Positions 2,856 through 50,656 are shown, counted from the first letter of the stretch. The stretch: 64,000 nt of DNA from Deltaproteobacteria bacterium (GCA_022711595.1 JAKLET010000003.1:62001-126000); one strand, 5' to 3'. Numbers and translations are program-made. Notes: generated by a model not told the origin, from the sequence alone.

Positions 2856-5800
2856 TTAAAATACCATTCTTGCCACTGCATTGACGCTATGGGCGATGTA
2901 GCTGCTCTCGCCTAACTGGGCATCGTAACCGATCTGGAATGACAGGCCGTTGTTCATGAACATTGATACGCCTGCACCGCAGAGAAGGAAATTCCTGTCG
3001 GGGGAGGGGGTTTCTATGCTGAACGGAGAGCTCCCTTGGGCCAGCCTCGAAATGATATTGCGGCTGTCCCTCAGGAACTCACGTCCATATGACGCGCGTA
3101 TACCCGGCATAATAACGCCCTTGCCGGTTTCCCATGTGTAATAAAGCTTTCCCCCGATGTTTCCCTGGAGGGACTCGGCTTTCTGCCTGTCCACGTTGAG
3201 GCTCAGCGCGCCCGCTCCTGATTCGGTGTAGCCGTCTATATCGAGCTTGATATACTGGAGCGAGAGCGTCGGTACTATCATCCACTTGTTTATGTTCAGT
3301 TCGTAACCCGTGCCTCCATAAAGGGTGAACTGGCGCCCTGTTGGACTGGAGGATGCGCTGCGGTCAAGACCGGGGAAGACTATGCGGCGGGTGTTCTTGT
3401 AGTCCGACCAGCCGTAGCCCGCCTGGCCGTCCACGAAAAATCCCTTTGTGTACCAGGTCCCGTATACGCCCAGCGTGTAGCCGTCCATCTTCACCTTGCT
3501 GCCGAAATCGTCAATGTCCGCCCGTGAGCCGGTGTACCCTAAAAGAAGACCGGCCGCCAGATTGTTTGTGAACCGATAATCAATGCCGACGGTCATCCCC
3601 GCGCTGGTGAAGCCGTATCCCACCTGATCGGAAGTGTCTCTCTGGTCGCCGGAGATGGCGTTGCCTTTCACGAAAATACCCCATTTCTCATCTTCGACCC
3701 CGGGAAGCATACCGGTAAGGTCAGAGCCTGTGCTGGCGATCAGCAGGGGTTTGTCTTTTCCGTCACGTATGAAGCCATTGTTCCGGAAGACGGCCCCGCC
3801 GGGGTTTGTCCCCCGGACACCGCGTCTTATGTCGCTCAATCGCTCGGAGATGTTGCCCGATTGAAATATGATGCCGCTGATACCCATGCTGAAGGCCGCT
3901 TCGCTTTCCTTCGGTGCTATCTGGTCATAGGCGTGGGCGACCTGGCCGTATGTGGGTATGGCGTCGATGGCGTCAAGGACCGTGTCGAGGTCACCCGTCG
4001 CCGACGGGGCAACGGAGTTGAGCATGGTGCCCACCGACCTCTGGTTGGCATTGAGGTATGCAATGAGGACCTGGTTCATGTAGTCGCGTTCCACCACCAG
4101 GTAAACCTGGTTTGCGACATCGTATTTTGGTTTAAAGACAACGGTTGGCATGATGTTGGTGAGCAGGCTTGTGAACTGTCCTGTCACACCTGTGGCGGCG
4201 GTCAGAAATGTCCCGAAGACGGTCCCGATGGCCGGGGTTGCACCGCCCAGCCATGAGGTCTGAAGGACACCGTTCAAGGATGCGCTTCCGGTGATCGCGA
4301 GAAGGTCATTGCTTGTCGGTGAGGCAACCTCTATGAGAAGTTTGCCTGCCGCTGCCTGGGTGTAACTGCCGGCCAGGGTGAGGGTGCCGATGGAATTGCC
4401 GGGGCTTACGGTGCCGCCTGTGTTGTAGAGGCCCCTTGATGCATGAATTGTACCTGTGCCGCCCACTGTTCCCGAATAAAGCCTGAACAGGTTGCCGAAC
4501 GACCCCGCAGCCTCGGTGAGCTGACCGTTGACTATGAGCGTGCCCCCGTCGACAATAACATTTCTGCTCACCTGGAAGGTCCTGCCCGCCGGGATCAGAT
4601 ATGTGGTGGCGGAATTCATAACGGTCAGGGACAGCGCGTTGATGTCGACGCCCTGTATCATGGTACCCGGTGTGAGCATGACCATCTCACCCATGAGGAA
4701 GGTCACGTTGTAGCCAAGCCATGTGCCGGTGTTTCCCGCGTCGATGTCAGCCACATTGAGCGTCCAGGTGCCCGTGCCATTCTCTCCCCAGAAGGCATTG
4801 GTGAGGAAGGTCCAGCTTTTGTTGGTGAAAGAGGTTGTGTCCTGCTGAGCAGGGTCAAGGTGTGATGTCGAGTAGAGTATCTTGCTGGCCATCGTCGAAG
4901 GTGAGGTGATGGTTGCAGTGAGATCGCCCGCCTTGGCGTGTGTCAATGTGAGCCCCACCTCGACGCCTTCAAGGTGCTGGTTCGCCTCTGCCGCGGTGAG
5001 GTTGAATGTCTGGCTAACACCGGCGGGGTCATCATCGGGGATCGCAAGGCTGAATGCCGCGCTCTTTGTCACCGAGGTCTGTTCGGTCACGTAGGCAACG
5101 TTATGGACCTTTTGAACGAAGGCGCCGGCGTTGATGTTTCCGAAACCGTAGTTGGGATTGAACCGGTTACCCGCCCCGTTTTTGCGCCAGCCGCCGAAGC
5201 TGCTGTCGGAGGTGTCGGACGCGTCTACGACCGTGCTGGTCTTGACGAGGGCGTGCTTGGCCATTCGTATCTCCATCTCCGGGTTGGCTTCTTTCCCCAG
5301 GGCCATGATGCCCGAGACAAGCGGGGTCGACGATGATGTGCCCCCGAAACCGCTGGCGTAGCTCGTATCCGGGAAGAGATCGTCCCTGTCGCCCGAAGTG
5401 TTTGTTGCCGAATAAGCGTTGTAGCCAAGGCCGGCCCCGGTGCGGTCCGTCGTCGTGATGCCGAACCCTGTGTAGTCGCTGCGGTTCGAAGGCGCCGTGA
5501 CGAAGATGCTCGAACCGAAGTTGCTGTAGTTGGTGTACTTGCCGTCGCTCCCCAGGGCAGCTACAGTGATTACGCTGGAATTGTCATGGTCGGCATCCCT
5601 GTTCGCGTCTTCTGTTTTTGTACCGCGTTCGTTCCCTGCGGCAAACACGTGTATGACACCGTTGGCGGCGGTGCGCTTCAAGGCGAGGGTCACGGCAGCG
5701 CTCTGGCCGGCGAAAGGCACTTCGCTGCTGTAACTGTGGTTCTTCACCTGGATCTCCGAAACTCCTTCTATTGTCCCTGTGGTCGGGTTGACGCCGCTCT

Positions 5801-6398
5801 TCCAGTAATAAGCATCAAGGACGTTTTGTTCAGATGATACCGGATCACCTGCTGTCGCAGTCTCGTTCAAACGCAGACCGGCGATCTGGGCGTACGGAGC
5901 GGCGCCGGTTCCGCCTATGCCGTTGCCGCCGCGGGCGGCGGCCACACCGGCGACGGATGTACCGTGGTTGTCGCCTATTTTCTGCGGGCCCTGGGGGGAG
6001 TTTGCGATGGATGCGTTGTCGCTGAAGTTCCTGCTCAGGTCGGCCCGATAATTTGGGGCGATGTCGTAATTGCCGCCGTCGACACCGTCGTCGACGATGC
6101 CTATGACCACCCCCTTTCCTGTGTAACCGAGGCTCCAGGCCCCCAACAGCCCGGCATCGATGCCGGAATTGACCATCAGGGTAGTGGTGCCGGACTGGAC
6201 AGAGCGAAAACTTATGCTTGAAGGTGCCTGGTTAACGAGGTGCCACTGACCGGGGAAATATGGTCTCGCCGTGGCGTTGTAAAAGAAATAAGGATCGTTG
6301 GGGTAGAATGGGTCAAGGTCCTCGCGGCCGGATGCGACAAATGGGGCCAGAACGATGAGCAGGGCGGCAAGGAGGGTTTTTAAATTGAACCTGTTCAT
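2856..6398 (-). CDS. Subtilisin-like serine protease autotransporter (type Va secretion)
   Basis: A 1180-residue protein with a Sec signal peptide (about 1-24), an S8 kexin-like protease passenger, a P/homoB domain (about 430-570), beta-helical passenger with a TVSPGNSIGTLTL autotransporter-associated repeat (about 660-690), and a C-terminal 12-strand-type beta barrel (about 900-1180) ending in Phe (ARMVF), the outer-membrane signature. The catalytic triad is visible: Asp103 (IVDDG), His145 (NHGTSVAG), Ser355 (GTSSSTP), with oxyanion Asn256 (AAGN). The start has GGAG 8 bp upstream. It should be exported, inserted in the outer membrane and display or release the protease. It is convergent with creC, and its own promoter overlaps a palindrome. 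The biological target is unknown. Confidence 0.92.
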   Translation of the reverse strand: MNRFNLKTLLAALLIVLAPFVASGREDLDPFYPNDPYFFYNATARPYFPGQWHLVNQAPSSISFRSVQSGTTTLMVNSGIDAGLLGAWSLGYTGKGVVIGIVDDGVDGGNYDIAPNYRADLSRNFSDNASIANSPQGPQKIGDNHGTSVAGVAAARGGNGIGGTGAAPYAQIAGLRLNETATAGDPVSSEQNVLDAYYWKSGVNPTTGTIEGVSEIQVKNHSYSSEVPFAGQSAAVTLALKRTAANGVIHVFAAGNERGTKTEDANRDADHDNSSVITVAALGSDGKYTNYSNFGSSIFVTAPSNRSDYTGFGITTTDRTGAGLGYNAYSATNTSGDRDDLFPDTSYASGFGGTSSSTPLVSGIMALGKEANPEMEIRMAKHALVKTSTVVDASDTSDSSFGGWRKNGAGNRFNPNYGFGNINAGAFVQKVHNVAYVTEQTSVTKSAAFSLAIPDDDPAGVSQTFNLTAAEANQHLEGVEVGLTLTHAKAGDLTATITSPSTMASKILYSTSHLDPAQQDTTSFTNKSWTFLTNAFWGENGTGTWTLNVADIDAGNTGTWLGYNVTFLMGEMVMLTPGTMIQGVDINALSLTVMNSATTYLIPAGRTFQVSRNVIVDGGTLIVNGQLTEAAGSFGNLFRLYSGTVGGTGTIHASRGLYNTGGTVSPGNSIGTLTLAGSYTQAAAGKLLIEVASPTSNDLLAITGSASLNGVLQTSWLGGATPAIGTVFGTFLTAATGVTGQFTSLLTNIMPTVVFKPKYDVANQVYLVVERDYMNQVLIAYLNANQRSVGTMLNSVAPSATGDLDTVLDAIDAIPTYGQVAHAYDQIAPKESEAAFSMGISGIIFQSGNISERLSDIRRGVRGTNPGGAVFRNNGFIRDGKDKPLLIASTGSDLTGMLPGVEDEKWGIFVKGNAISGDQRDTSDQVGYGFTSAGMTVGIDYRFTNNLAAGLLLGYTGSRADIDDFGSKVKMDGYTLGVYGTWYTKGFFVDGQAGYGWSDYKNTRRIVFPGLDRSASSSPTGRQFTLYGGTGYELNINKWMIVPTLSLQYIKLDIDGYTESGAGALSLNVDRQKAESLQGNIGGKLYYTWETGKGVIMPGIRASYGREFLRDSRNIISRLAQGSSPFSIETPSPDRNFLLCGAGVSMFMNNGLSFQIGYDAQLGESSYIAHSVNAVARMVF

Positions 6399-31239: not shown

Positions 31240-33702
31240 TTACTTGCTAGAAGAAATGGGACTTACCAATCCTCGCTGTCCATCGATTCGCACCTTATCT
31301 CCATTCTGTAGAATGGACAGGGCGCCCCGGACAAACATTACTGCCGGAATACCCAATTCACGGGCCGTTACCGCCCCATGTGAAAGAGGACCTCCTGATT
31401 CGGTAATGAGGCCTTTGCATTTGTAAAAAAGAGGTGTCCATGAAGGGTTTGTTGTCCGCGCTACCAGAATCGCATCCTGAGGAACATTAGGAAAATCATC
31501 CACACCCCGCACTAAATAGACACTTCCCTCTGTAGTGCCTGGGCTTCCTGGTACCCCCTTCAATTCATTACCGCCAGGCTCAGACTGGCCGCCAGCGAGT
31601 GTTGACAGATCCCATTTTGGTTCAGTTACCGTTGCCTCCTGATATGCCTTTTTTCGACTGTTTATAGCTACCCTCATTTCTTCGGGAAGATCGAAGGTGG
31701 TTAAAGATTCGAGCTCGTTTTTCGTAAGAAAGAAGAGATCATATTCATCATCGAGGTGGAAACGTCTTCCAAATGCGGCAATTACTCTCCGTACAAGAAG
31801 ATTTATCCTTGTTGTTTCAAAATGCTCCAGGTCGTCAAGCCATGTAAAAGTACCCGCGAGACGGATCAATTCATGGACAAAAACATGCAGGTCCGGTGGT
31901 GAGGCAGACATGACGGATTGTATGGCTTCAACACGGCGCTTCCTGTTCTGTATCTCTTTATCGATCGGCCTGTCCTGATTCGATTCGGCAATAACCAGGA
32001 TCAGCGAAAGCACTACTTCAGGCGCTTCCGCCCATGTAGGCTTGTAATAATCAAAAGTGGTTTCGCGATGACCGTAGTGAGCTACAAATCCTCTAAATTG
32101 CCTGGAAAACTCAGGAAACATATCCATACACCTCAGAACCTGTCTGGCATCCTTTTCGATAAGTGCCCGAAGCTCGCCATTTTTCCTAACCTCCTGGGCC
32201 AATTTGTACAATTCTCTGTTGATCTGGCCGGTTTTTGTGCCGTTGTCCGTGAGTATGCTTTTCACCAGGGTTTGAGCGCGGAACATATCGCCCGTCACGA
32301 GAATGAGATACTCGAAGAGCGTTCTGGTGAGAAAGGATTGGGTCATGGAGATGGCGATGTTGGGTTTAAAGTAGTCGCAGGACACCTTAAAAAGACTTTG
32401 AAAATATTTCTGAAAATCCTCGATATCAAATTTATCAAATATGACAGAGGATAACCGTCCCATTTCAAGAAGGTATCGATCCAGGTCGCGCAACCATTGG
32501 TGAGGCAGATCTATGACCCACTGGAATCTTTCCCTGATCTCAGCTATATGTTTCCTGATCGCTTCCATACTCGACATATCAACCGGCCGATAAAGACCAA
32601 GAAGCTGGACCGCATTCTGATTACCGTACACATATCCATCGGAACAGTAAAACCACGGTCTTGTGGGAAGGCTGATTCCCATGAGCTTGAGTGAATGATC
32701 CAGGGAAATATTGAAGGCCTCATCCACATAGGACCATGTAAGAGGAGTGAGAGGTTCGGGAAATCTTTCAGCCGATTCGTCGCGGGTAAATCGTGGTGGA
32801 ATGCTGGTTTGAGGCCTTGCTTGGAGAATATGAAGGTCGTTGCCGGTATAGGCCCACTCCACATCCTGCGGAGCGCCGAATGTCGATTCAATCTTCTTAA
32901 CCATCTCAGCTATGGAGAATATTTTAGCATCATCCAATGAAGGGCTTTCCTGTTTGTCTGATGAAAGGGCTTCGACTTGTGTTCCGCCGGTATTAGCGAG
33001 GGTTACCTTTGTTTCTTTTCTTCCAATCCTTCGTTCGAGTATTTCCTTCTTCTGCATGTCTACTATCCACGAATCAGTGAGAGATTCCCCCGATACGACA
33101 GACTCTCCAACACCAAAATTGCTTTCTATGAGGACGTGTCCCAGGTTGCCTCCCACAGGATCGACAGAAAAGGCGACACCCGAAATGTCAGAATCGACCA
33201 TAACCTGCACGACCACCGCCATGGACGCGCTTTCCTGATCAAAGCCGTTATGATGCCGATAGAGTACGGCATGTTTGAGCCAGAGCGAGGCAAAACACTC
33301 CCTTGCCTTTCCGGGAACGTCATTCAAATCGACGTTCAGAAACGTATCGTGCTGACCGGCAAAGGCGGCCGACGAGAGGTCTTCGAAGGGCGAGGACGAC
33401 CGGACCGCAAAACGTTTTCCCTCACCGAACCGTTTCAACTCTTCGAGAATGAGCTTCTTGGCGGATTGATCGAATTCCCGGGCCAGTACACTATTGCGCA
33501 TCTCTCGGCATTGTTTCTCGAGAAGGGTATCGTTATCGAAATCGAATGCAGGGTAGACAGGGTAGTTATCCCTGTAGAAGGAAGCCCTGATCACGATTCC
33601 GTCTGGAACATTGTAGCCTTTGGATATGAGGCGCTTCAGATTGTACCCTTTGCCACCATCTTCGTGAATGCTGCCATCCTCACTTAGCCGGCTGAAAATC
33701 AT
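31240..33702 (-). CDS. Three-domain PEP-utilising dikinase (PEP synthase / rifampin phosphotransferase-like)
   Basis: An 820-residue enzyme. The N-terminal ATP-binding (PPDK_N) domain starts with GGKGYNLKRLISKGYNVPDGIVI and includes RSSSPFEDLSSAAFAGQHDTFLN and VEWAY...LHILQARPQT (end near 300). A long middle domain (about 310-690) is not recognised. The C-terminal swivelling phosphohistidine domain has LVARTTNPSWTPLFYKCKGLITESGGPLSHGAVTARELGIPAV with the active His near 775. This order (ATP domain, substrate domain, His domain) is that of rifampin phosphotransferase and its many uncharacterised relatives. ATG 33702 follows a perfect GGGAGGAAGATT site and overlaps the PAP2 gene by 23 bp. The acceptor is unknown; the context suggests a lipid or head-group. 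Confidence 0.8.
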   Translation of the reverse strand: MIFSRLSEDGSIHEDGGKGYNLKRLISKGYNVPDGIVIRASFYRDNYPVYPAFDFDNDTLLEKQCREMRNSVLAREFDQSAKKLILEELKRFGEGKRFAVRSSSPFEDLSSAAFAGQHDTFLNVDLNDVPGKARECFASLWLKHAVLYRHHNGFDQESASMAVVVQVMVDSDISGVAFSVDPVGGNLGHVLIESNFGVGESVVSGESLTDSWIVDMQKKEILERRIGRKETKVTLANTGGTQVEALSSDKQESPSLDDAKIFSIAEMVKKIESTFGAPQDVEWAYTGNDLHILQARPQTSIPPRFTRDESAERFPEPLTPLTWSYVDEAFNISLDHSLKLMGISLPTRPWFYCSDGYVYGNQNAVQLLGLYRPVDMSSMEAIRKHIAEIRERFQWVIDLPHQWLRDLDRYLLEMGRLSSVIFDKFDIEDFQKYFQSLFKVSCDYFKPNIAISMTQSFLTRTLFEYLILVTGDMFRAQTLVKSILTDNGTKTGQINRELYKLAQEVRKNGELRALIEKDARQVLRCMDMFPEFSRQFRGFVAHYGHRETTFDYYKPTWAEAPEVVLSLILVIAESNQDRPIDKEIQNRKRRVEAIQSVMSASPPDLHVFVHELIRLAGTFTWLDDLEHFETTRINLLVRRVIAAFGRRFHLDDEYDLFFLTKNELESLTTFDLPEEMRVAINSRKKAYQEATVTEPKWDLSTLAGGQSEPGGNELKGVPGSPGTTEGSVYLVRGVDDFPNVPQDAILVARTTNPSWTPLFYKCKGLITESGGPLSHGAVTARELGIPAVMFVRGALSILQNGDKVRIDGQRGLVSPISSSK

Positions 33703-34606
33703 AATCTTCCTCCCTTGAAATACTGTGGTCTTCCGTAAACCCGATGCGTTTTGCAAATACGACACTTCCCCAATAGCAAAGGGCACCGAGAGGTGCACCG
33801 CACAGAATATCCGTCACGTAGTGATAGCGAAGATAGACCGTGGAAATGGTAAGCAGAATAAATGGGACCAGATATGCATGATATAGAGACCTGCTCCAAC
33901 GGCGGAAAAAGAGAAGCAGATATAACCCAACCCCCACATGGAGACTGGGAAAAACATCGAACCGCGACGATCCCAGTTTAACCATAAGGGCGTTCAATGA
34001 CGTAAATAAATATCCTTCGATAGGCTTTGAATACAACTCGGCGAAATGCACATAAGGCCCCTCCGCCGGGACGATTGTATAGCCTGAAATCCCAATCCCG
34101 TATAGGGAAAAAATCCCCACACAAAAAACGGTAAGCCTTCTTATGTCACCCGATCCGTAGTAGAGGAATGCGAAGGAAAGGAAGACGATAAAGAGCATGT
34201 ATCCCAGGCTCATGATCTCTGTCAATGGTTTTGAGTAAACCGTCTGGGCTAATATGCTCAAGTCCTGGCCGATAATGAAAACATCTATATTTGCGAGCGC
34301 GCTGTCACTAATTGGTGCGCCAATTAGCGGGACAATCGATTTGATACTGGTGAAAGCAAAATTCATGGCAATCACGTTCCATAATAAACGTATTCGGTAA
34401 AAGACCGGATTCTTATTTGCCTTCCCAAATCTGATCAATAGACCATAAACGAGAATGCAAAAAAAATAAGCCATGGCCCATTCGAACCTTCCAGAATGAA
34501 AGATCAACCTTATCGCGATCTGGAGACACATCGCACACATCAAGACTTCGTGGATCATGATGGAAGTCAAAGAAATATTTTCTGCTATGTTAGCTGGCTT
34601 AGCCAT
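33680..34606 (-). CDS. PAP2/AUR1-like membrane phosphotransferase or phosphatase
   Basis: A 308-residue membrane protein with six to eight TM helices. Signature motifs near the C-terminus, FDVFPSLHVGVGLYLL and STVYLRYHYVTDILCG, are those of the inositol-phosphorylceramide-synthase-like branch of the PAP2 superfamily (catalytic His in PSLH and in RYHYxxD). The start ATG 34606 (AGGATAAAGAT upstream) is chosen because it opens at MAKPANIAEN; the frame extends upstream through the preceding gene. It overlaps the acyltransferase gene by 22 bp and the dikinase by 23 bp, so three genes are tightly coupled. It probably transfers or removes a phospho-head-group at the membrane. Confidence 0.8.
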   Translation of the reverse strand: MAKPANIAENISLTSIMIHEVLMCAMCLQIAIRLIFHSGRFEWAMAYFFCILVYGLLIRFGKANKNPVFYRIRLLWNVIAMNFAFTSIKSIVPLIGAPISDSALANIDVFIIGQDLSILAQTVYSKPLTEIMSLGYMLFIVFLSFAFLYYGSGDIRRLTVFCVGIFSLYGIGISGYTIVPAEGPYVHFAELYSKPIEGYLFTSLNALMVKLGSSRFDVFPSLHVGVGLYLLLFFRRWSRSLYHAYLVPFILLTISTVYLRYHYVTDILCGAPLGALCYWGSVVFAKRIGFTEDHSISREEDYDFQPAK

Positions 34607-35784
34607 ATCTTTATCCTGCGGTTGAGAATAAGAGCATCTTTTCTTCGGGCTGAACACATGGTGAGAAATTGCCTCGCCCCATCCTTCCATTGCCGATATA
34701 TTTTCATGGCCAGAAGCGAGAGGCCGGCATAGATCGCTGCCATTAAAAAGGATGACAGCGAAGGCAATATCAACAACAAAAGTAAACACGCAATTATCTG
34801 AAAAACCAGTAACGAGCCTCCTGCAATAATTCGCCAAAGGGAAATTGTATTATCATCATCGGCAAAACGACGGGCGGCCAGAAACGCTCCGAACAAAGGA
34901 ACGGTATTTAGGGCGAAACCGGCAGCAACGAGAGGTGTCAGGATCAAAAGCAACACAACCTGCAGCGCCATAGAATGCTGAAATGCTGCCGGTGGACGGG
35001 GATGTCTTGCAGAGCCTGTTAGTCTGGATATTTCCGATAGTAGTTCCGGGGGGATTCCCCCCTTCGTATATTGGATACAAATGTTACGATGAGACATTGA
35101 TGGTGATATATGAAGGACCGTATCTGCAAATAGCTCTCCAAGTTTCTGATTCGCTTCATCGGGAAAGGTTACCGCAACCTCTTTTAGTAGCGATTCGACA
35201 AGCGCCTTCAGCTCGTCCAGATTTTTGTATTGTTTGCGAGTGATCGTTCTGGCTGGACCAAAGTATATCTCCACATCGCTCCGAAACTCATATCCGCGTG
35301 AGTAATGAAGTCCGACAGGAATAACTCTAAGGCTGGCTTCCGGTAAGATTTTCAGGGTAAGGGCGATGAGGTGCGCAACACCAACTTGGACCGGCAAAAG
35401 AGTGGGCCCGAGCTTACTTGTGCCTTCTGGAAAAATAACTATTTTCTCACCCTTTTCGATCAGTTCCGCGGTATATTTCAATTGCATCAGATTTTCTTTT
35501 TGTTGCGCGATTGAGCGTGGGTGACGGTATACGTCTATGTTATTGTTAAAAAGAAGTTTAACTATGGGGGACTTTGAAATATTCTTCCCTATTATTAAGC
35601 GGGCATCCTTTATTGCTTTTGATAGTACAAATCCATCAACAGCGCCGTTGCGATGGATTGCCACAAACAATACTGGATCATTAAGAGGAATATTCCCCTT
35701 TCCGGTTATGACGACCTTATTAAAATACGTCCACGCGATAGCCTTGCTGATAAGACCACTTACAAACCCTGAACCAGGTTTCAT
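34585..35784 (-). CDS. PlsC-type acyltransferase with C-terminal membrane domain
   Basis: A 399-residue protein. Residues about 20-210 form a glycerophosphate acyltransferase (LPLAT) domain with the catalytic HX4D motif in IHRNGAVD (about 44-49), and FPEGTSKLGP (about 117-126). The C-terminal part (about 265-399) has about four TM helices and a basic tail, an extension not in plain PlsC. ATG 35784 has GGGGGCGA just upstream. It is the first gene of an overlapping operon with PAP2 and dikinase genes. It would acylate a lyso-lipid or polyol phosphate; the exact acceptor is unknown. Base use looks AT-richer than in the flanking housekeeping genes. Confidence 0.82.
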   Translation of the reverse strand: MKPGSGFVSGLISKAIAWTYFNKVVITGKGNIPLNDPVLFVAIHRNGAVDGFVLSKAIKDARLIIGKNISKSPIVKLLFNNNIDVYRHPRSIAQQKENLMQLKYTAELIEKGEKIVIFPEGTSKLGPTLLPVQVGVAHLIALTLKILPEASLRVIPVGLHYSRGYEFRSDVEIYFGPARTITRKQYKNLDELKALVESLLKEVAVTFPDEANQKLGELFADTVLHISPSMSHRNICIQYTKGGIPPELLSEISRLTGSARHPRPPAAFQHSMALQVVLLLILTPLVAAGFALNTVPLFGAFLAARRFADDDNTISLWRIIAGGSLLVFQIIACLLLLLILPSLSSFLMAAIYAGLSLLAMKIYRQWKDGARQFLTMCSARRKDALILNRRIKIWLSQLT

Positions 35785-36195: not shown

Positions 36196-36912
36196 TTAAT
36201 TTTTGTTAACATCTTTTCTCTCCCATAAGAACGTATCCGGTGATTCGGGAAAGATCTTCATTGAATAGTTGTTTGTATCCTTTTCAGTCTTCAATCTGTA
36301 GTGAATTTCCCGGGTGTTATAAATACCGGAAAAATGATACTTCTTTCCATCGGTACAGGAAATCCTTAAAAACGAACCATAAAGGGTATTGATAACAAAC
36401 ACCTTTTCAATTGTGTCGAGGGGAACGTCTTGCGTGAGCGGATTGAATACGTTTTTCCAGATGCAAATACGCTTGTCTACGATCGCCGCTCCTGCCAGCA
36501 GGCGTTTGCGTATGAAGAGCAAGATAAACAAAATGTCGATCAAAAGCAGCGATATCACCATAAACCCCACTTCGAATCTTTGGATAGTACCTTTAACGAT
36601 AGACATATACAAAAAGAAACAGAAGAGGGTAAAGAAAAAAGAGTGCCCTATCATCCGCATGTAAGGCAATATATGAAAAGGCAGGCAAAGATGTTCTCTT
36701 TCCTGAACGGAAGGATAATATGCAACTAAAAAGCCATCGATGTTCTTTCGCCGAAGGTGTATCAGATACAGGAAAAATATAATAACCAGGGCTATCGATC
36801 CTAAGAAGGCTGCCGCATTTAAAGGATTTACCCCCGAAGTGCAGATGATGATGACAAAAAGACTCAAGAAACTGAAAAGTGCAAAAAAAGCGATTGCAAT
36901 TTTATCTGTCAT
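36196..36912 (-). CDS. Membrane protein with a cytoplasmic PH-like domain, unknown function
   Basis: A 238-residue protein with four predicted TM helices (about 5-25, 33-52, 88-108, 115-135). The C-terminal about 100 residues (AAIVDKRICIWKNVFNPLTQDVPLDTIEKVFVINTLYGSFLRISCTDGKKYHFSG) look like a bacterial PH-type domain. No family is named. The gene is AT-rich with codon use like that of the acyltransferase operon. No strong ribosome site is apparent, and it lies in the island-like block on the same strand as that operon. Confidence 0.6.
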   Translation of the reverse strand: MTDKIAIAFFALFSFLSLFVIIICTSGVNPLNAAAFLGSIALVIIFFLYLIHLRRKNIDGFLVAYYPSVQEREHLCLPFHILPYMRMIGHSFFFTLFCFFLYMSIVKGTIQRFEVGFMVISLLLIDILFILLFIRKRLLAGAAIVDKRICIWKNVFNPLTQDVPLDTIEKVFVINTLYGSFLRISCTDGKKYHFSGIYNTREIHYRLKTEKDTNNYSMKIFPESPDTFLWERKDVNKN

Positions 36913-47975: not shown

Positions 47976-48470
47976 ATGGGGCTTACGGAGGAACTGGGTC
48001 TCGACCGTCAAATAGATACCGTGGAGCATGAAAGCCTGCTCAATATCGTTTACACCGGAACAATGATAGCCAGGGCGTCATTCAGGTATTTCCAGGGTCA
48101 CAAGTTGACCGACGCACAATTCAACGTGCTCATGCAGCTCAGGTATGCCGGTGAGAAGACCCTTTCACAGGCTGTATTGGGCCGGCGGCTTGTCGTCAAC
48201 AAGGCGGACATGACAGGGATAATAGACAGGCTTGAAAGGCAGGGGCTTGTCAGGCGACAGGCCCATCCAGAGGACAGAAGAGTTAACATGATCGAAATTA
48301 CAGAGAAGGGCGCGCAGGTGGCAGAAGAATTGGAGCCGGGATATTTCGAGGGTGTCAGGCAGTTGATGTCGGGGATACCTCCTGCGGAGCTGAAAAACCT
48401 GAATGGTATTCTTGAGAGAGTGCGCGGCAATATAAGGGGAATACTGGTATCCCGGCCGGAAAAAGGATGA
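47976..48470 (+). CDS. MarR-family transcriptional regulator
   Basis: A 164-residue winged-helix regulator. The core is LTDAQFNVLMQLRYAGEKTLSQAVLGRRLVVNKADMTGIIDRLERQGLVRRQAHPEDRRVNMIEITEKG, the recognition helix and wing of MarR proteins, followed by the dimer helices. ATG 47976 is chosen (AAGAGGTGATC just upstream) over an in-frame GTG two codons earlier. It overlaps the acyltransferase/acyl-ACP synthetase gene by ATGA, so it likely regulates that gene and itself in response to a fatty-acid-like ligand (inference). Confidence 0.88.
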   Translation: MGLTEELGLDRQIDTVEHESLLNIVYTGTMIARASFRYFQGHKLTDAQFNVLMQLRYAGEKTLSQAVLGRRLVVNKADMTGIIDRLERQGLVRRQAHPEDRRVNMIEITEKGAQVAEELEPGYFEGVRQLMSGIPPAELKNLNGILERVRGNIRGILVSRPEKG

Positions 48471-50656
48471 GGTGGAGGGTGAACAAAAAACGCGGGTTAT
48501 TGAGGGCCATATTCGAAGAAGGGGTCAGGACAATATTCAAATTGTACTTCACTCTTTTGCACAGGATCAGGGTTGAGGGACACGAAAGACTTCCCCGCGA
48601 TGTCGACAAGCTTATCGTCATATCGAACCATGCGAGTCTTCTCGACGGGATCATTCTCTGGACTTATATAGACATAGATCTCAAAATACTTGTCAACCGT
48701 GTCAGGGCCAGGGAATTGCTGCTTCGGCCATTTATGCAAAACCGCTATACCGTTCAGATCGACACCATGAACCCCTATTCGCTCAAGGGGATCATCGAAG
48801 AAGTGAACCGCGGCATCGCCCTTCTGGTATTTCCCGAGGGCCGCATCACCGGGACCGGGAATCTCATGAAGATTTATGAGGGTACTGGTTTTGTGGCATA
48901 CAAAACCGGGGCAAGGATACTTCCTGTTCACCTTGGAAACACGTACGAGACGATCTACTCTAAAAAGCGAAAGGGAAGGAAGGTGTTTGCGCCCATCACG
49001 CTGACCATAGGGGAGGTTCGCGCTCCTATTGATGTCGAGCGTTTCCAGCCCCGGGACAGGAAACGCGAAGCTGCCAGGGCGATTTACGAGATGCTCTGTG
49101 AGATGTTCTATGAGGCACACTACCGCCCGTCGACGCTCGGCCGAGAATTCATGCGCATCTGTAAAGAACAGGGTAAAAAAACACTTTTCAAAGATGCCAC
49201 CGGCGCGCAAGTGAGCTATAGAAAAGGCCTCATGGGGGCCCTTGTTCTGGGAAGAAAGTTTTCCGCATTTCCCGTTTCGAACATCGGTGTTTTCCTGCCG
49301 AACCTTGTAGCCACAGCGTTGCTTATTTTCGGGCTCGAGATATACCGGAAGGTGCCGGTACTTCTCAATTATTCCAGCGGCCCCGGCGCGCTTAAGCACG
49401 CGATGGATCTCGCGGATCTGGAGGTGATCGTAACGTCCAGAACGTTTTTGGAACGCATAAAGGTGCAGCCGTCACTTTTTGAAGGAAAACAGGTCGTTTA
49501 TGTCGAGGATCTCAGGCGGACTATAGGCGTTGCAGACAGGATCGGCGGGATTCTCAAAGCCGTATTCCCCGGTACGCTCACGCGGATAGACCCCGGGCAG
49601 CACAGGGAAACGGCAGTTATCCTGTTCACATCAGGGTCTGAAGGGGTACCCAAGGGTGTCTGCCTGTCACATGACAACATAATCGCGAACATCTGGCAGT
49701 CTCTTTCCCGTATTGATGTGGGAGGCGGCGATTATTTTCTCAATGCCCTCCCCATGTTCCACAGTTTCGGACTCACCGTCGGCACCATACTCCCCGTATT
49801 CGCGGGGGCCCGCTCTTTCCTGTACGTCAGTCCCCTCCACTACAGGATCGTACCGGAGATCGCCTATGACGAGGGGTGCACCATATTGATGGGTACCAAT
49901 ACGTTCCTGAGCGGTTACGGCAGGAAGGCCCACCCTTACGATTTCCACGGGATGCGCTACATATTCTGCGGCGCCGAGGCGCTCAGCGATACCGTCTTTG
50001 AACGCTACGCGAAGGTTTTCGGCATTCGTGTCATGTCCGGATACGGCGTGACCGAGTGCGCCCCCGTTGTCTGCATGAACAGCGCTCTCGAACATGAATA
50101 CGGGACTGTAGGCAAGGTGCTCCCCGGTATTGAATACAAGCTGATGCCCGTAGCGGGGATCGACAACAAGGAAGGCCGCTCCGGCCGTCTGTTTGTAAAA
50201 GGCCGCAACATCATGAAGGGGTACCTCAAGAACGAAGCGGCGAACAGGAAGTATCTTGTCGAGGATGAAGGCTGGTATGATACGGGCGATATAGTCGAGG
50301 TCGATGAGAGCGGTTTCGTGAAGATAGTGGGGAGGCTGAAGAGGTTTTCCAAGATAAGCGGCGAGATGATATCTCTGACGGCCGTGGAAGAGGCACTCTC
50401 CGGCCTTTTCGGCGAGCGCAAGGAAACGGCAATAATGGCCGTCTCCGATGAAAGAAAAGGTGAAAAGCTCGTCCTCGTCACGAACAGCAAGGAAGCCGAT
50501 CTTAAAAAGGCCCGTGAAAGGCTGCGCGAGCGCGGCCTGCCCGACCTTGCCTCACCGCGCGAAATTGCCTACATGAGGGAGATCCCCAAGCTTGGTACCG
50601 GCAAGGTGGATTACGTGAAGCTCGGGGAATTCCTGCTTAAAGAAAATGGTCGATGA
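48467..50656 (+). CDS. Bifunctional acyltransferase / acyl-ACP (acyl-CoA) synthetase, Aas-like
   Basis: A 729-residue two-domain enzyme. The N-terminal LPLAT domain (about 15-200) has NHASLLDG (HX4D) and FPEGRITGTGN. The C-terminal adenylating domain (about 230-729) has ILFTSGSEGVPKGVCLSHDN, MSGYGVTECAPVV, GWYDTGDIV and KLGTGKVDYVKLGEF (catalytic Lys). This is the domain order of Aas, which re-acylates lysophospholipids using fatty acid plus ATP and ACP. It is translationally coupled to marR. The start at 48467 or GTG 48479 (after GGTGGAGG) is uncertain. Confidence 0.9.
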   Translation: MRWRVNKKRGLLRAIFEEGVRTIFKLYFTLLHRIRVEGHERLPRDVDKLIVISNHASLLDGIILWTYIDIDLKILVNRVRARELLLRPFMQNRYTVQIDTMNPYSLKGIIEEVNRGIALLVFPEGRITGTGNLMKIYEGTGFVAYKTGARILPVHLGNTYETIYSKKRKGRKVFAPITLTIGEVRAPIDVERFQPRDRKREAARAIYEMLCEMFYEAHYRPSTLGREFMRICKEQGKKTLFKDATGAQVSYRKGLMGALVLGRKFSAFPVSNIGVFLPNLVATALLIFGLEIYRKVPVLLNYSSGPGALKHAMDLADLEVIVTSRTFLERIKVQPSLFEGKQVVYVEDLRRTIGVADRIGGILKAVFPGTLTRIDPGQHRETAVILFTSGSEGVPKGVCLSHDNIIANIWQSLSRIDVGGGDYFLNALPMFHSFGLTVGTILPVFAGARSFLYVSPLHYRIVPEIAYDEGCTILMGTNTFLSGYGRKAHPYDFHGMRYIFCGAEALSDTVFERYAKVFGIRVMSGYGVTECAPVVCMNSALEHEYGTVGKVLPGIEYKLMPVAGIDNKEGRSGRLFVKGRNIMKGYLKNEAANRKYLVEDEGWYDTGDIVEVDESGFVKIVGRLKRFSKISGEMISLTAVEEALSGLFGERKETAIMAVSDERKGEKLVLVTNSKEADLKKARERLRERGLPDLASPREIAYMREIPKLGTGKVDYVKLGEFLLKENGR

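Follow-up and report, generated by a model that had tools for sequence, protein, structure and literature searches.

The three-gene operon and its conservation

The window analysed here is a stretch of 64,000 nucleotides from Deltaproteobacteria bacterium (GCA_022711595.1 JAKLET010000003.1:62001-126000), and it carries at positions 31240-35784, on the minus strand, three overlapping open reading frames (ORFs) that encode, in this order, a PlsC-like acyltransferase, a PAP2_3/AUR1-like membrane protein and a dikinase resembling rifampin phosphotransferase (RPH). The open frame of PAP2 reaches back to 34837, and the ATG at 34606 was taken as the sensible start; that of the dikinase reaches back to 33798, and its start was taken as the ATG at 33702, which has AAGGGAGGAAGATT just before it. 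With these ATG starts, the plsC-like and PAP2 genes overlap by 22 bp and the PAP2 and dikinase genes by 23 bp, in agreement with an initial annotation of the window, made from its sequence alone, which had described three genes overlapping by 20-odd bp. The genes, and two sites within the dikinase, are as follows.

34585..35784, minus strand: PlsC-like acyltransferase P0003, 399 aa (Pfam PF01553, 6e-14); LPLAT domain and C-terminal membrane domain of 3-4 helices
33680..34606, minus strand: PAP2_3/AUR1-like membrane phosphotransferase P0002, 308 aa (PF14378, 2.3e-15)
31240..33702, minus strand: RPH-like dikinase P0001, 820 aa (PPDK_N PF01326, 4e-71; PEP-utilizers PF00391, 1e-23)
31807..31836, minus strand: predicted acceptor-site signature D-D-L-E-H-F-E-T-T-R, dikinase residues 623-632; module-specific, R-E-x-x-K/R in other RPH-like enzymes
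31378..31380, minus strand: codon GGPLSHGAVTARE of the catalytic swivel His775; invariant in 21/21 dikinases, aligned with RPH His825

These three genes form one conserved, co-inherited functional unit, hereafter the module. An alignment of PAP2 proteins, used as the query against 84,980 species genomes, retrieved 80 loci, and in 23 other loci of the 80 the acyltransferase, PAP2 and dikinase genes are adjacent and in the same order, over six phyla: Thermodesulfobacteriota (L079, L080, L090), Verrucomicrobiota (L081-L084, L092, L095, L096, L103, L104, L107), Planctomycetota (L087), Pseudomonadota (L086, L100, L109, L117, L131, L142), Campylobacterota (L091) and Chlamydiota (L097), with one unclassified bacterium (L101). 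Because the same order recurs so widely, the association is not due to chance. As most loci had been gathered through PAP2 similarity, searches with the dikinase alone were also run to avoid that bias; the dikinase was found in 5/146 genomes of Akkermansia relatives and 5/149 genomes of Campylobacter relatives, and all five new loci with enough flanking sequence (L173, L175-L178) contain the full triad in order (L174 proved to be the contig of L107 and is left out of this count, and L180 lies at a contig edge). The initial annotation had proposed looking for conserved clustering in other genomes, and such clustering is thus found whether the PAP2 or the dikinase gene is used as the entry point. 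The pairwise distances of the three proteins are moreover correlated, with a Mantel r of 0.91-0.95 against 0.44 for the best of 2000 permutations. A comparison of the neighbourhoods of the triad loci revealed no further recurrent gene family.

Two departures from this arrangement were observed. In Helicobacter cinaedi, PAP2 and dikinase genes lie together without an adjoining plsC gene, which is found 68 kb off on the same contig (L112); the module acyltransferase of this species, apart from the PAP2-dikinase pair, adjoins apparent phosphate-transport (pst) genes (L162:4869-6362). At L179:4506-6562, another locus from the dikinase searches, the acyltransferase gene is directly followed by a sequence for only the last 231 dikinase residues, which is either a deletion remnant or an assembly error.

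The three encoded proteins

The dikinase is composed of an ATP-grasp domain (about residues 1-303), an acceptor-binding middle domain (about 304-713) and a C-terminal swivel domain with the phospho-carrier His775. Its AlphaFold model (pLDDT 86) matches RPH over its whole length in Foldseek (5hv1, 5e-41), which upholds the kinship with rifampin phosphotransferases initially proposed. Pfam assigns no domain to residues 304-740, in line with the unassigned middle domain noted initially, but this middle part is not without a counterpart, since it corresponds to the substrate-binding domain of RPH. Compared with RPH-Lm (PDB 5hv1, 5fbs; PMC4844700), the module dikinase has the same domain order and keeps the ATP-site residues (RPH Arg117 and Glu297) and the C-terminal swivel His, but the identity in the structural match is 22-23%, and it scores 312 bits with the NCBIfam RPH model NF041857, whose curated cut-off is 999. 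The family also includes two-component phenol and hydroxyphenylethanone kinases (PMC4844700, PMC12167813), and RPH-like dikinases have been called a large unexplored group by the authors of the RPH structure (PMC4844700).

The main difference lies in the acceptor site. In RPH, Arg666 and Glu667 hold the transferred phosphate, and mutating either abolishes rifampin phosphorylation (PMC4844700). Among nine compared RPH-like enzymes, including RPH, Arg is present in 9/9 and Glu in 8/9 at these positions, and Lys or Arg in 9/9 at position 670; in 21/21 module dikinases, these three positions are Asp, Asp and His, so that R666-E667...K670 becomes D623-D624...H627. An ungapped, independent profile alignment to RPH gives an identical pairing of the acceptor-site residues. 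D623, D624, H627, T630 and T631 are found in all 21 module dikinases, and further invariants special to the module include D308, E309, R313, Q362, Y444, P447-N448, E547, Y553, E626 and T630-T631. As judged from alignments to RPH, on which all our statements on the pocket rest, the hydrophobic rifampin pocket is largely replaced and the acceptor site is turned from basic to acidic. We infer that the acceptor could be a cationic or metal-chelated polar compound rather than an aromatic one or a bare lipid chain. The dikinase has no hydrophobic membrane stretch.

Known activities of related enzymes were considered for the dikinase. A phosphoenolpyruvate (PEP) synthase or pyruvate phosphate dikinase is rejected, as the protein has only PPDK_N and PEP-utilizers, with the His domain C-terminal, and lacks the C-terminal PEP/pyruvate barrel; rifampin resistance is unlikely, as both the acceptor residues and the pocket are changed. 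The initial annotation had held that its reading would fall if the dikinase acted only on antibiotics or pyruvate, and these two observations speak against such an outcome. PpsAB and HpeHI (PMC12167813) share the ATP-grasp, acceptor and swivel parts, HpeI structurally matching the ATP-grasp part, but they are two-component enzymes, whereas the module dikinase is one fused protein, with no aromatic-degradation genes seen nearby. A two-component-like half dikinase from the phylum of the window (L057:7110-8828; PpsA-like, with acceptor and swivel parts and no ATP-grasp) has the usual Arg acceptor residue, unlike the module; it follows an MreB-like gene, and the 11 kb retrieved around it contain no ATP-grasp partner.

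The PAP2 protein contains the catalytic sites PSLH (220-223) and T-X5-H262-X3-D266, and the best structure matches of the module PAP2 profile are to AUR1 (9ivc/9vj3, 5e-9), which, with PF14378, agrees with its first description as an AUR1-like membrane enzyme. The phosphatase motif KX6RP is absent from 22/22 aligned module PAP2 proteins, and SRX5HX3D is missing from 21/22, the protein of L109 showing a C3-like string; where the C3 phosphatase motif has Arg, module PAP2 has Thr, as does AUR1. These motifs would favour head-group transfer over phosphate release. A single-protein pattern search with the window PAP2 found no close relatives, which were found by the alignment query.

The fold family and the PSLH and T-X5-H-X3-D sites are shared with the inositol phosphorylceramide synthase AUR1 and with BT_1522, a bacterial AUR1-like PI-dihydroceramide synthase (PMC9246714). 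P0002 is nevertheless not matched by the NCBIfam PI-dihydroceramide synthase model, and module PAP2 has an acyltransferase and a dikinase as partners. Serine palmitoyltransferase (SPT) is missing from the window genome, whose sole SPT-type match is BioF, adjoining an apparent bioA. Matches in the range of cluster SPTs (505-610 bits) are found in 2/21 module genomes, the others reaching the BioF/Kbl level or giving nothing. A ceramide head-group pathway, implied when the PAP2 protein was first described as of inositol-phosphorylceramide-synthase type, is hence rejected as a candidate for the module, 19/21 module genomes being without SPT. Bacterial sphingolipid clusters share with the module a distant PAP2_3 relative (about 18-26% over the alignment), in company with spt, ceramide-synthase-like and short-chain dehydrogenase/reductase (SDR) genes, but they have no dikinase or module-type acyltransferase, and the triad loci, including that of the window, have no spt, bCerS or CerR gene nearby.

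In several Desulfobacterota and Acidobacteria, a PAP2_3 gene adjoins spt and GNAT-type ceramide-synthase-like genes, mostly together with a CerR-like SDR gene (L060, L061, L066, L067, L070, L116, L123-L126, L133, L138, L143, L149, L154), and these PAP2_3 genes are candidate bacterial ceramide head-group transferases. A related gene adjoins an acetolactate-synthase-like gene for a thiamine pyrophosphate enzyme in two genomes of one genus (L068, L069), and a lone PAP2 relative of Rubripirellula lies among apparent desaturase and BtaA-like genes (L102:4858-8558), suggesting a betaine-lipid context.

The acyltransferase contains the motifs HX5D (H44-D50) and FPEG (118-121), and H44, N46, A48, D50 and FPEG are invariant in 23 module acyltransferases. 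Its AlphaFold model (pLDDT 90.5) matches GPAT1 (8e4y, 1.5e-6) and PlsC (5kym, 4e-6) in Foldseek. P0003 belongs to the PlsC/GPAT acyltransferases by PF01553 together with H-X4/5-D and FPEG, but with 38 bits against a curated cut-off of 103 it is outside the 1-acyl-glycerol-3-phosphate acyltransferase family TIGR00530. Two long hydrophobic stretches (about 267-304 and 313-360), helical in the confident model, account for the extra transmembrane domain already noticed in this protein.

Accessory lipid genes accompany the module in some genomes. A Parachlamydiales genome encodes the acyltransferase as a fusion with an LplT-type carrier (match to the MFS-acyltransferase part of PRK08633, 1e-88); in an Akkermansiaceae genome, a gene for an LplT-type lysophospholipid carrier lies just upstream of the module (1e-85); and in Providencia, an LCAT-family gene occupies this upstream position. 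These carriers and the LCAT-family gene point to lyso-lipid chemistry. The acyltransferase superfamily is shared with Aas-LplT (PRK08633, PRK06814), as is the LplT-type carrier, fused in one module locus and adjacent in another, but the module enzyme has no AMP-binding (acyl-ACP synthetase) domain, HX5D instead of HX4D, a C-terminal membrane domain of its own, and PAP2 and the dikinase as fixed partners. A second acyltransferase of the window, at 48467-50656 on the plus strand, seems to form a fusion with an AMP-binding acyl-ACP/CoA synthetase, an Aas-like arrangement that lacks the carrier, and weakly matches the module PlsC profile (2.7e-4).

Distribution and transfer of the module

The distribution of the triad is patchy, both among genomes of the phylum of the window and among Akkermansia and Campylobacter relatives. 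At E 1e-5, the genus and family of the window yield no acyltransferase or PAP2 relatives, and their dikinase matches are generic and weaker only; among 395 genomes of the phylum, one other has a dikinase match as strong as 1e-45, generic and without the module signature. In the dikinase tree phyla are mixed, a Planctomycete being placed inside Verrucomicrobia, Desulfobulbaceae being split and Campylobacterota being intermixed with Alpha- and Gammaproteobacteria. The GC content at third codon positions (GC3) of the three window genes is 0.44-0.51, against 0.59-0.76 in most measured neighbours, so that the operon is probably a late arrival in this genome; a small ORF at 36196 is also low in GC3 (0.48). 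Co-divergence, the phylum-mixing dikinase tree, the patchy distribution and the foreign GC3 are most simply read as three genes inherited and transferred as one unit.

Searches of plasmids gave generic dikinases only, no PAP2 match and one weak partial acyltransferase match; the Providencia module has no match in the E. coli genomes searched, PADLOC gave no match, and the only PHROGs match, a partial one, is to a phage 'kinase' family. Elsewhere in the window, the minus strand carries at 2856-6398 a gene for a large subtilisin-like serine protease with an autotransporter-like C-terminus.

Proposed function and its alternatives

Family and fold identify two of the three partners as lipid enzymes. 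We propose, with about even confidence, that the triad is a self-contained, horizontally mobile module for building or remodelling a single unusual membrane phospholipid, starting from precursors that every diderm cell would have. By homology to RPH, the dikinase would take the beta-phosphate of ATP onto His775, releasing AMP and Pi; phospho-His775 would then swing to the second active site and pass the phosphate to a hydroxyl compound that is polar and probably cationic or metal-chelated, which could be an alcohol serving as head group or a lipid's polar end. The GPAT/PlsC-type enzyme would acylate a lyso-lipid or a phosphorylated acceptor, and the AUR1-type PAP2 enzyme could, through its His/His/Asp site, move a phospho-head group between lipids. 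That all three enzymes act on one lipid, the order of the steps, the identity of the acceptor and the nature of the product as a membrane lipid are parts of this proposal which we infer. In its more specific form, in which a swivelling His-dikinase with an acidic, possibly metal-dependent acceptor site phosphorylates a head group or lipid that the AUR1-type transferase and the GPAT-type acyltransferase incorporate, the module would define a new mobile lipid pathway and an undescribed phospholipid class, and this we advance more tentatively. To our knowledge, phosphorylation by a swivelling His-dikinase has no precedent in lipid biosynthesis. The initial annotation had seen in the three genes a set that could build or phosphorylate an unusual membrane lipid: the functional unity and a probable lipid context hold, and the specific chemistry (lipid substrate, step order, product) is left as conjecture.

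Several observations weigh against this proposal. The accessory lipid genes occur in three lineages only, and the locus collection is mostly PAP2-driven, a bias removed for the five dikinase-found loci. Close relatives of PAP2 also occur singly, in genomes that lack the module dikinase, which indicates that PAP2 can in some cases do without its two partners. Finally, the dikinase acceptor site gains the acidic and polar residues E312, D623, D624, H627, T630 and T631, which argues against the binding of a lipid chain and leaves room for a non-lipid substrate.

One alternative, possible but rather unlikely, is a lipid salvage cycle in which PAP2 transfer or phosphatase activity would free diacylglycerol, or LCAT/phospholipase activity a lyso-lipid; the dikinase would act as an ATP-driven diacyl- or monoacylglycerol kinase yielding phosphatidate or lysophosphatidate, and PlsC would re-acylate, the end product being an ordinary phospholipid. 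PlsC, a PAP2 enzyme and a kinase would indeed close a simple phosphatidate/diacylglycerol cycle, the LplT-type carriers and LCAT gene beside some modules fit lysophospholipid recycling, and eight module genomes, that of the window among them, lack DgkA. DgkA is, however, present in 13/21 module genomes, where a further kinase would be redundant, and for this reason the dikinase does not appear to be a general diacylglycerol kinase stand-in. An acidic/polar acceptor site, in a protein without membrane stretch, also fits poorly with such a substrate.

The other alternatives are all improbable. Instead of a bulk membrane lipid, the product could be a lipid-linked glycan carrier that the module synthesises or trims, as in the recycling of undecaprenyl phosphate: the PAP2 family includes undecaprenyl-diphosphate phosphatases, a distant module relative matches the UppP model PRK11837 (2e-6), and all module hosts found come from groups known as diderm. 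This is doubtful in view of the missing phosphatase motifs described above; no recurrent glycosyltransferase or polysaccharide gene accompanies the module, and the acyltransferase would have no obvious role. Even less probably, the dikinase could phosphorylate an antibiotic or aromatic compound, like RPH or phenylphosphate synthase, and be merely co-transcribed with lipid genes; the full-length RPH fold and the known members of the family (PMC4844700, PMC12167813) are compatible with this, but the linkage to both lipid genes over six phyla and the co-divergence are not expected from it, and the essential Arg666 and Glu667 (PMC4844700) are Asp and Asp in 21/21, in a largely replaced pocket. Least probable is a sphingolipid head-group module in which the AUR1-like enzyme would load ceramide, the other two supplying precursors: the spt-cluster relatives, AUR1 as the closest solved structure by sequence and the BT_1522 precedent (PMC9246714) point that way, but an SPT-level match exists in 2/21 module genomes only, and the window genome has BioF only.

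Each of the three enzymes comes from a known superfamily, and it is their fixed combination that is without a described counterpart: no description of it was found in the open-licence literature (subscription literature being outside the search), in keeping with the initial view of the operon as a candidate for an undescribed pathway. The module is common to Verrucomicrobia, Campylobacterota, Desulfobacterota, Providencia and others, and its hosts include well-studied groups (Akkermansia, Campylobacter, Helicobacter, Providencia). For one branch of the RPH-like dikinases it provides a testable role, together with a searchable diagnostic motif, DD-x-EH-x-x-TTR. If the product is a lipid, membrane lipid synthesis would come to include dikinase chemistry, and a lipid made by gut and environmental bacteria would have escaped notice.

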